A DNA stretch of 64,000 nt from positions 1-64,000 of the forward strand of contig NZ_VITY01000012.1 of assembly GCF_007993935.1 (NCBI RefSeq), given 5' to 3'. The DNA is from Bradyrhizobium macuxiense (lineage in GTDB: Bacteria > Pseudomonadota > Alphaproteobacteria > Rhizobiales > Xanthobacteraceae). Below, piece after piece: positions 32,129-34,090 of the stretch; within the stretch, counting starts at the first letter, position 1; every line of letters begins with the position of its first letter. The translations under genes and the position numbers were made by a program. The notes below the pieces were generated by a model. The model saw nothing but the letters and a program-made list of their open reading frames with translations. It did no database searches and was not told the origin of the DNA.

Positions 32129-33691
<1,563 letters not shown>

Positions 33692-33779
33692 GTCAGAAAT
33701 TCCTTTAAGCTTTGCGCCCGTCATGTTGCTCCTTGAGCAACTACCTGGGCGATATCAGGGTTCGGTGATCTCGTACAAA

Positions 33780-33861
33780 CCCCTGAGTGCCCAGGCGCAG
33801 ACGCCCAGCCGGCCCTCAGGGGCAGGTAAGAAGCAGGCCGCCAATAAGGAGGGCGGGCGTC
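33780..33861 (-). promoter_or_regulatory. Candidate transcription attenuator in the leuA leader
   Basis: On the minus strand an 8-bp stem CCCCTGAG / CTCAGGGG (33815-33822 and 33780-33787) encloses an inner GC-rich hairpin and is followed by GTTTG. Its 5' arm contains the TGA stop of the leucine-rich leader ORF. A competing pairing exists: GACGCCC inside the leader ORF (33855-33861) is perfectly complementary to GGGCGTC (33800-33806), which lies inside the stem loop. Two mutually exclusive structures around a run of Leu codons match ribosome-mediated attenuation. Folding was judged by eye. Confidence 0.55.
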
Positions 33862-33932
33862 ACGGCCGGGATCGTGGCGGTAGCCTCAGCCACCTCCTCC
33901 GAAATCCCATCGATTTGGCCGCGAATCAGCAT
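33816..33932 (-). CDS. Putative leucine-rich leader peptide of leuA (38 aa)
   Basis: A short frame not long enough for normal gene calling. From the ATG at 33932, with AGGG 7 nt upstream, it encodes 38 residues ending PALLIGGLLLTCP; an in-frame ATG at 33974 would give 52. Five of the eight codons at 33828-33851 are Leu (CTC CTT ATT GGC GGC CTG CTT CTT). The peptide also carries many Ala, Ile, Thr and Val residues. The stop lies in the first arm of the hairpin and the leuA start is 125 bp further. This is the layout of an attenuation leader; translation is unproven. Confidence 0.5.
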   Translation of the reverse strand: MLIRGQIDGISEEVAEATATIPAVTPALLIGGLLLTCP

Positions 33933-34019
33933 TGCCAGACCCTGTTGAGCGCCAAAACCCTCGGTCAAAACCATTGACGGTTGGTTGCCGGGACGCGCTT
34001 TGCGTCGTCGTTCTAGACG

Positions 34020-34047
34020 ATTATGGCGAGCCGCCGCAATGGGTAAA
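34020..34047 (-). promoter_or_regulatory. Candidate sigma-70 promoter for the leuA leader
   Basis: On the minus strand TTTACC (34042-34047), a 16-bp spacer and CATAAT (34020-34025) match a housekeeping promoter in 4/6 and 5/6 positions. Transcription would begin near 34013, about 80 nt before the leader ORF start at 33932. Confidence 0.45.
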
Positions 34048-34090
34048 GATGGTCAGGGGGGTTGACCTAACGTGACGAGACAGCTTGGCG

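Follow-up and report, generated by a model that had tools for sequence, protein, structure and literature searches.

A leucine-codon leader ending in a stop-holding hairpin upstream of leuA, conserved through much of the Alphaproteobacteria

The window considered here is a stretch of 64,000 nucleotides from Bradyrhizobium macuxiense (contig NZ_VITY01000012.1), and it carries leuA on its minus strand, behind a short ORF rich in leucine codons and a GC hairpin. The LeuA protein scores over the NCBIfam cut-offs for NF002087 (869 bits, against a cutoff of 729), NF002086 and TIGR00973, and contains the Pfam domains HMGL-like, LeuA_dimer and HCS_D2. An in-frame ATG at 33724, upstream of the conserved start, is found in only part of the window's subclade. 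The features are as follows.

32129..33691, minus strand: leuA, 2-isopropylmalate synthase, 520 aa (NCBIfam and Pfam matches)
33691-33689, minus strand: conserved leuA start ATG (kept in the alignment)
33701..33706, minus strand: leuA Shine-Dalgarno (SD) sequence AAAGGA (from sequence; conserved in the genus)
33715..33751, minus strand: hairpin C, just upstream of the leuA SD, CGCCC (33751-33747)/GGGCG (33719-33715) (read by eye)
33755..33762, minus strand: AACCCTGA, a possible partner of the hairpin A 3' arm in an alternative hairpin (paired in the window's minimum-energy fold)
33780..33822, minus strand: main hairpin A, CCCCTGAG...CTCAGGGG, with a stop codon in its 5' arm (covariation and class-wide conservation)
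33816..33932, minus strand: leader ORF, 38 codons, with the end GGLLLTCP-stop (ORF list and alignments)
33828..33851, minus strand: Leu-codon run, five of eight codons Leu (sequence and relatives)
33940..33943, minus strand: probable SD of the leader ORF, AGGG (sequence; conserved in the genus alignment)
34011..34039, minus strand: conserved promoter-like boxes TTGCGG (34039-34034) and CTAGAA (34016-34011), 17 nt apart (alignments of 30 and 28 loci)

A preliminary description of this region had placed a promoter-like pair at 34020-34047. The pair is recovered by a consensus scan (34047-34020, TTTACC-16-CATAAT; one found against 0.1 expected in shuffles), but in alignments CATAAT is confined to the subclade L001-L008 and was rejected as a conserved -10 box. 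The boxes listed above are those that the alignments keep, the upstream one with the consensus TTGCRG. Just upstream of them, at 34051-34068 on the minus strand, lies a palindrome, AGGTCA-N7-TGACC, which is kept in most aligned genus loci and some family loci and is likely an operator for a regulator of leuA. Between the promoter-like boxes and the leader ORF there is a small conserved inverted repeat, AACCGTCAATGGTT (33969-33982, minus strand), with some paired exchanges seen by eye.

The leader ORF, its hairpin and their spread among relatives

The leader ORF has the coordinates and codons first ascribed to it, with 38 codons upstream of leuA and five of eight Leu. It runs from an ATG at 33932 to a TGA stop at 33818-33816, with the C-terminal end ALLIGGLLLTCP-stop; codons 33851-33828 read CTC CTT ATT GGC GGC CTG CTT CTT, so that the last Leu codon is a CTT, the fourth codon before the stop. 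A frame broken in relatives that keep leuA had been named as evidence against a leader, and no such case was seen: of the 108 family and genus loci whose upstream DNA is readable, 105 have an ATG-started ORF ending at the hairpin stop, and in the remaining three (L067-L069) the frame is open from a GTG or TTG start. Across non-redundant loci, 130 of 130 have an open frame with a start. The leader is 38-49 codons long in 76 distinct ORFs from the genus and near kin that share one common start motif. These ORFs were picked for an open frame, and the substitution pattern alone is therefore independent coding evidence. Synonymous changes, proposed in the preliminary description as a check in aligned relatives, are in excess: among single-base changes the synonymous fraction is 0.42 in the N-terminal part of the leader, against 0.29 expected by uniform mutation, and 0.50 against 0.30 in the last 14 columns. 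The pattern points to a mild coding signal at the N-terminus of the peptide, for which NCBIfam and Pfam hold no family model.

Codon choice in the leader is distinctive. Of 469 leader Leu codons, 261 are CTT; the codon accounts for 5 of 136 in two other ORFs of the window and for none of 32 in leuA itself. At the fourth codon before the stop, 282 of 285 loci have CTT and three CTA, a count to be read with the fact that 118 of all loci came from a pattern requiring CTT and that inclusion needed two Leu in eight codons. Among 83 loci found by a covariance model the same position holds CTT in 78 and CTA in four, L153 not being counted.

The stop codon of the leader lies, as had been noted, within the first arm of an 8-bp GC stem, CCCCTGAG (33822-33815)/CTCAGGGG (33787-33780); the full span of hairpin A, 33822-33780, is CCCCUGAG/CUCAGGGG. 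In 82 of 83 fetched model-match loci the 5' arm holds the stop codon and a Leu codon stands four codons ahead of it; the exception, L153, has UGG at the stop position. The covarying stems that the preliminary description suggested looking for are present class-wide: in an alignment of 83 sequences, 97.9% of cells are paired (29-56% in slid controls), and both sides have changed in 11 of 16 pairs, with 0 of 500 shuffles as good. This alignment was taken at E<=8e-5, leaving out the weakest forward matches (L163-L168), and since it was fitted to the model it leans towards the model. Some exchanges can be read directly, for instance CCUCUGAG/CUCAGAGG in L157 and L161, and the stop changes to UAG or UAA with matching partner changes in L149, L156 and L160. 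Within 34 family sequences covariation is nearly nil, because the stem hardly varies there. Folding of the whole leader is modestly better than that of shuffles (z -2.27, with 5 of 200 as good).

The interior of the hairpin, GGCCGnCyGGGC...GCCTGGGC, is nearly constant in the best matches of the order. This is beyond what pairing needs and could indicate a protein bound to hairpin A, a proposal made for the actinobacterial LEU element, with the leader peptide secondary; but in more distant matches the interior varies freely while the Leu codons, the stop position and the outer stem are kept, and the rare CTT codons argue for decoding, which leaves protein binding very improbable.

The spread of the leader was followed at several depths. 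DNA upstream of leuA at 110 family and genus loci shows the hairpin pattern in 107, the three misses being L058, in which one base of an arm differs, the second leuA copy L078 and the 177-base fragment L082. A covariance model of the Leu-codon end and hairpin, R1, was built from 34 family hairpins; at E<=1 it matches 167 of 199 genomes in the order and 66 of 190 in the class. A wider model of 83 sequences, R2, matches 87 of 289 genomes in the class and 48 of 299 in the phylum at E<=0.05, and one of the phylum matches falls outside the class (G801, E 0.023). In a search of the window's whole genome with the model, the place described here was the single match, save for a weak match to its own reverse strand. 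Among the 83 fetched loci, which are the best matches, leuA lies 30-250 nt downstream on the same strand in 81; in the other two, L157 and L186, a 118-codon ORF comes first and then leuA. Further, a gene-blind pattern scan of named genomes gave at least 118 stretches. Of the matches listed, 113 are followed immediately by leuA, four break off after fewer than 100 bases, and in one, L298, an extra ORF comes before leuA. The scan pattern fixed CTTA, CCCCTGAGCG and CTCAGGGG and is thus uninformative on variation at those bases. Among the matches listed, 80 titles are alphaproteobacterial or 'Proteobacteria' MAGs.

A few loci depart from the common arrangement. The ORF between leader and leuA in L298 has about 199 codons. 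The 118-codon ORF between hairpin and leuA in L157 and L186 is presumably cupin-like, and in L157 its SD, GAUUAGGA, is complementary to the leader's UCCUAAUC. The L157 helix UCCUAAUC/GAUUAGGA was rejected as a leuA pairing, its partner being the SD of the 118-codon ORF, and L157 is outside the SD-pairing statistics given below. In L118, L125-L128 and L235 the leader precedes a far more distant type of LeuA, at 27-30% identity, which would fit an exchange of the gene type with retention of the leader. In the f24 family, all ten genomes tested (G235, G280, G315, G345, G372, G394, G688, G731, G808 and G819) were without a LeuA of this type at E<=1e-100, in a search run without a positive control; none of 13 f24 genomes in the R2 search has the leader at E<=0.05, and G315 gave a weak match (E 0.21) in the R1 search.

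Since it is conserved across relatives, the leader is more than a chance occurrence, and we regard it as almost certainly a real leader of leuA. By these model and pattern matches it is conserved through much of the Alphaproteobacteria. What the comparison of sequences shows is a Leu run that ends at a fixed distance before a strong predicted hairpin holding the stop codon, upstream of leuA. That the leader senses Leu-tRNA is very probable on this evidence, and the signal would then be the supply of leucyl-tRNA.

Predicted pairing with the leuA Shine-Dalgarno sequence and the output of the leader

Class-wide, the Leu run tends to be complementary to the SD of its own leuA. The duplex test covered 127 loci in which a start and a hairpin could be located automatically, and 32 of the 317 loci were left out; the start finder used ATG 33724 for L001, and the folding by genus used the conserved start. 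The mean energy of the Leu run with its own SD is -10.85 kcal/mol against -9.72 for non-cognate partners (z -4.96, 0 of 1000 permutations). With lineage-matched partners z is -5.5 and -4.3, and with GC-matched partners -4.2 and -5.0 (0 of 2000 each). Controls for the Leu run gave z -0.4 with leuA coding DNA, -1.3 with the first 25 nt of the spacer and -1.7 with mid spacer. Leader segment -80..-58 gave -0.9 with the SD and -1.5 with coding DNA; segment -58..-36 with the SD gave -3.6. Scanned along the leader, pairing with the SD is strongest at the Leu run (z -5.5). It peaks again some 50 nt ahead of the hairpin (z -4.8, or -2.7 and -3.7 with lineage-matched partners), and there is nothing from -72 on. 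Examples of Leu-run:SD helices include UCCUUUCGCU/AGCGAAAGGA in L164, CCUGCUCCU/AGGAGCAGG in L188 and UCCUUCGA/UCGAAGGA in L159. The second SD-complementary stretch of the leader ORF, present in some lineages, lies about 54-26 nt before the hairpin and is strong in L212, L166 and L035. Its presence means that the Leu run is not the sole candidate, and some of the signal may arise elsewhere.

A ribosome placed in silico on the Leu run lowers the mean cost of opening the leuA SD from 4.92 to 3.67-3.86 kcal/mol over the 127 loci. The gain is 1.1-1.3 kcal/mol, against 0.0 and 0.4 for control masks (opening costs of 4.92 and 4.50). A ribosome at the stop codon gives a mean cost of 4.05, near the stalled values. 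The SD is then almost as accessible as under a stall, and the model therefore requires rapid release. From the class-wide covariation of the two sequences we infer that the Leu codons serve as an anti-SD of leuA.

The best explanation, to which we give a probability of about 0.55, is a cis-acting leucine leader of leuA that works by ribosome-mediated translational attenuation and not by transcription termination. When leucine is plentiful, the RNA of the leader ORF, chiefly its Leu codons, would act as an anti-SD that masks the leuA ribosome-binding site. With charged tRNA-Leu in short supply, the ribosome would stall on the Leu codons, and its front edge would lie at the base of the hairpin; most of these codons are CUU, which is seldom used in those window ORFs that were counted. 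The stalled ribosome would remove the masking strand, and leuA would be translated. The leader probably switches leuA on when leucine is short. For the translational output across the class as a separate matter, we see the chances as evenly balanced. The preliminary description had offered a translational variant as a fallback, and it fits the class-wide data better, given the SD pairing and the in silico stall; in the window's genus it is not borne out.

There, the window and 12 relatives (11 of the genus), folded singly, have a leuA SD that costs only about 0.9-2.8 kcal/mol to open. A stall changes this by <1 kcal/mol in most, in either direction, with +3.0 at one stall position in L104. As the SD already folds open there and a stall does little, we hold the translational reading to be the best model for the class as a whole only. 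The genus of the window does have the sensor half; on these folds, it is rather doubtful that the output there would be the translational one of the class.

Rival readings of the output step

In Bradyrhizobium and near kin a local switch might operate, in which pairing of CCC(U/C)..AGCGCC with the hairpin A 3' arm competes with hairpin C, and the position of the ribosome on the leader chooses between them. Hairpin C, in the genus otherwise GCGYY/RRCGC, is found in 81 of 108 family and genus loci and 57 of 68 genus loci, as GCGCC/GGCGC in 65 and GCGCT/AGCGC in eight; the subclade L001-L008 fails the pattern and carries CGCCC/GGGCG by eye. Its position 20-25 nt ahead of the leuA start codon in 76 of the 81 loci that have it, the exchange of GCGCC/GGCGC for GCGCT/AGCGC, and the conservation of CGAGATCACC..CCC..AGCGCC between indel-rich stretches all favor such a switch. 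However, the SD is unpaired in consensus folds of two genus sets, statistical support for the alternative of the 3' arm is weak, and there is neither a U-tract nor clear blocking of the SD, and we consider the local switch unlikely.

Also unlikely is Rho-dependent attenuation, in which the untranslated spacer after the leader stop would let Rho halt transcription before leuA when leucine is plentiful, the ribosome's position deciding. A U-tract is lacking here as well, and the spacers are C-rich and T-poor (over 130 loci, C 0.316, G 0.268 and T 0.139); a comparable idea has been raised for actinobacterial cys leaders in the available text of PMC1262725. Yet C exceeds G by little, some spacers are no more than 26 nt long, which leaves Rho little room for loading, and an upstream stall would expose more untranslated RNA, not less.

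Classical transcription attenuation, with hairpin A or a downstream hairpin as intrinsic terminator and an alternative pairing as antiterminator, is less probable still. It would account for a Leu-run leader followed by a strong GC hairpin and, in the window, by TTT. T is a little enriched in the 8 nt behind the hairpin relative to the remaining spacer (0.198 vs 0.131), and terminator-like sites occur at 9 of 130 loci, above all five shuffles (0-7). But the region in the window contains no terminator-like site, as the earlier remark on the missing strong U run anticipated; only 11 of 130 loci have at least four T in those 8 nt, and spacers are 13.9% T. The intrinsic-terminator reading fails because there is no U-tract, and the idea that the 8-bp stem is the terminator of a transcription attenuator is not supported, U-tract terminators being absent from the window and, with few exceptions, class-wide. 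Further, the leader stop codon lies inside the putative terminator stem, which a ribosome finishing the leader would therefore melt. The 3' arm of hairpin A pairs with 33762-33755 in the window's minimum-energy fold, and class-wide its pairing with the spacer is slightly better than in shuffles (mean z -0.41 +/- 0.11; cognate vs non-cognate 0.022), which as a class-wide switch is not convincing. The preliminary description had a 7-bp pairing of leader codons with the stem loop compete with the stem. Such pairing exists in the window, at best 8 bp (33870-33863 with 33811-33804, and 33861-33854 with 33807-33800), and a shorter GCCCA/TGGGC match recurs within the genus; but by eye the pairing codons vary between relatives, and the proposed competition is not convincing and gives no evidence of an antiterminator.

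Comparison with known systems

If translational attenuation by the Leu run is true, it would provide a specific leucine switch for a large class that includes nitrogen-fixing symbionts and Caulobacter, and one that the RNA and protein libraries searched have missed. A literature search, mostly of papers open without subscription, found no report of an alphaproteobacterial leuA leader, and an earlier mention is possible; the available text of PMC10117765, PMC1273637, PMC4117421 and PMC4842269 does not mention one. Searched with Rfam 15, the window has no leader family at gathering score and 33680-34060 none at E<=10; a known Rfam leader, including Leu_leader RF00512, was set aside, there being no covariance-model match.

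As in classical attenuators, a control-codon leader ORF, predicted to be translated, stands before a biosynthetic gene. The attenuator of the enterobacterial leu operon, leuL (Rfam Leu_leader RF00512), has a leader peptide with Leu codons of rare types. The alphaproteobacterial leader shares with it the Leu codons, their rarity and a gene of the same pathway; unlike leuL, it has no U-tract terminator and no Rfam match, and its stop codon lies inside the main stem. In translational attenuation of the erm type, a ribosome stalled on the leader uncovers a ribosome-binding site further downstream that is otherwise masked. Here the signal would be uncharged tRNA instead of an antibiotic, and the masking strand would be the control codons themselves; freeing of the SD in the erm manner is predicted in silico on average over the 127 loci, but not in the window or the 12 relatives. 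Vitreschak and colleagues are said to have described, in 2004, attenuation at an ilvIH leader in Alphaproteobacteria. That leader and the Caulobacter ilv leader (PMC4117421) resemble the present one in that a ribosome senses a branched-chain amino acid in the same class; they differ in the gene controlled and are described as transcription attenuation.

The nearest relative in logic is the actinobacterial LEU element, although we do not claim membership. As far as the available text of Seliverstov et al. (2005; PMC1262725) describes it, an upstream ORF with a Leu run precedes leuA and its Leu codons pair with the leuA SD. The authors cite mutations in the leader Leu codons as inconsistent with classical attenuation and favored a regulatory protein (PMC1262725). 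The two systems agree in the Leu-run ORF before leuA, and no terminator is described for LEU. They differ in phylum, and LEU has a proposed pseudoknot where the constant part here is the stop-holding hairpin; the base stem of Leu codons with the SD in LEU may have its counterpart here in a class-wide statistical signal, and the Leu codon:SD stem is weak in the window's genus. We put forward tentatively, at somewhat less than even odds, an RNA family spread across the Alphaproteobacteria in which Leu control codons would double as the anti-SD, the stop codon would be buried in a hairpin and tRNA supply would be read out as translation initiation, convergent with the LEU element. If this is true, it would be a second, independent case of control codons masking the ribosome-binding site of leuA, and the actinobacterial element would become testable in easier hosts.
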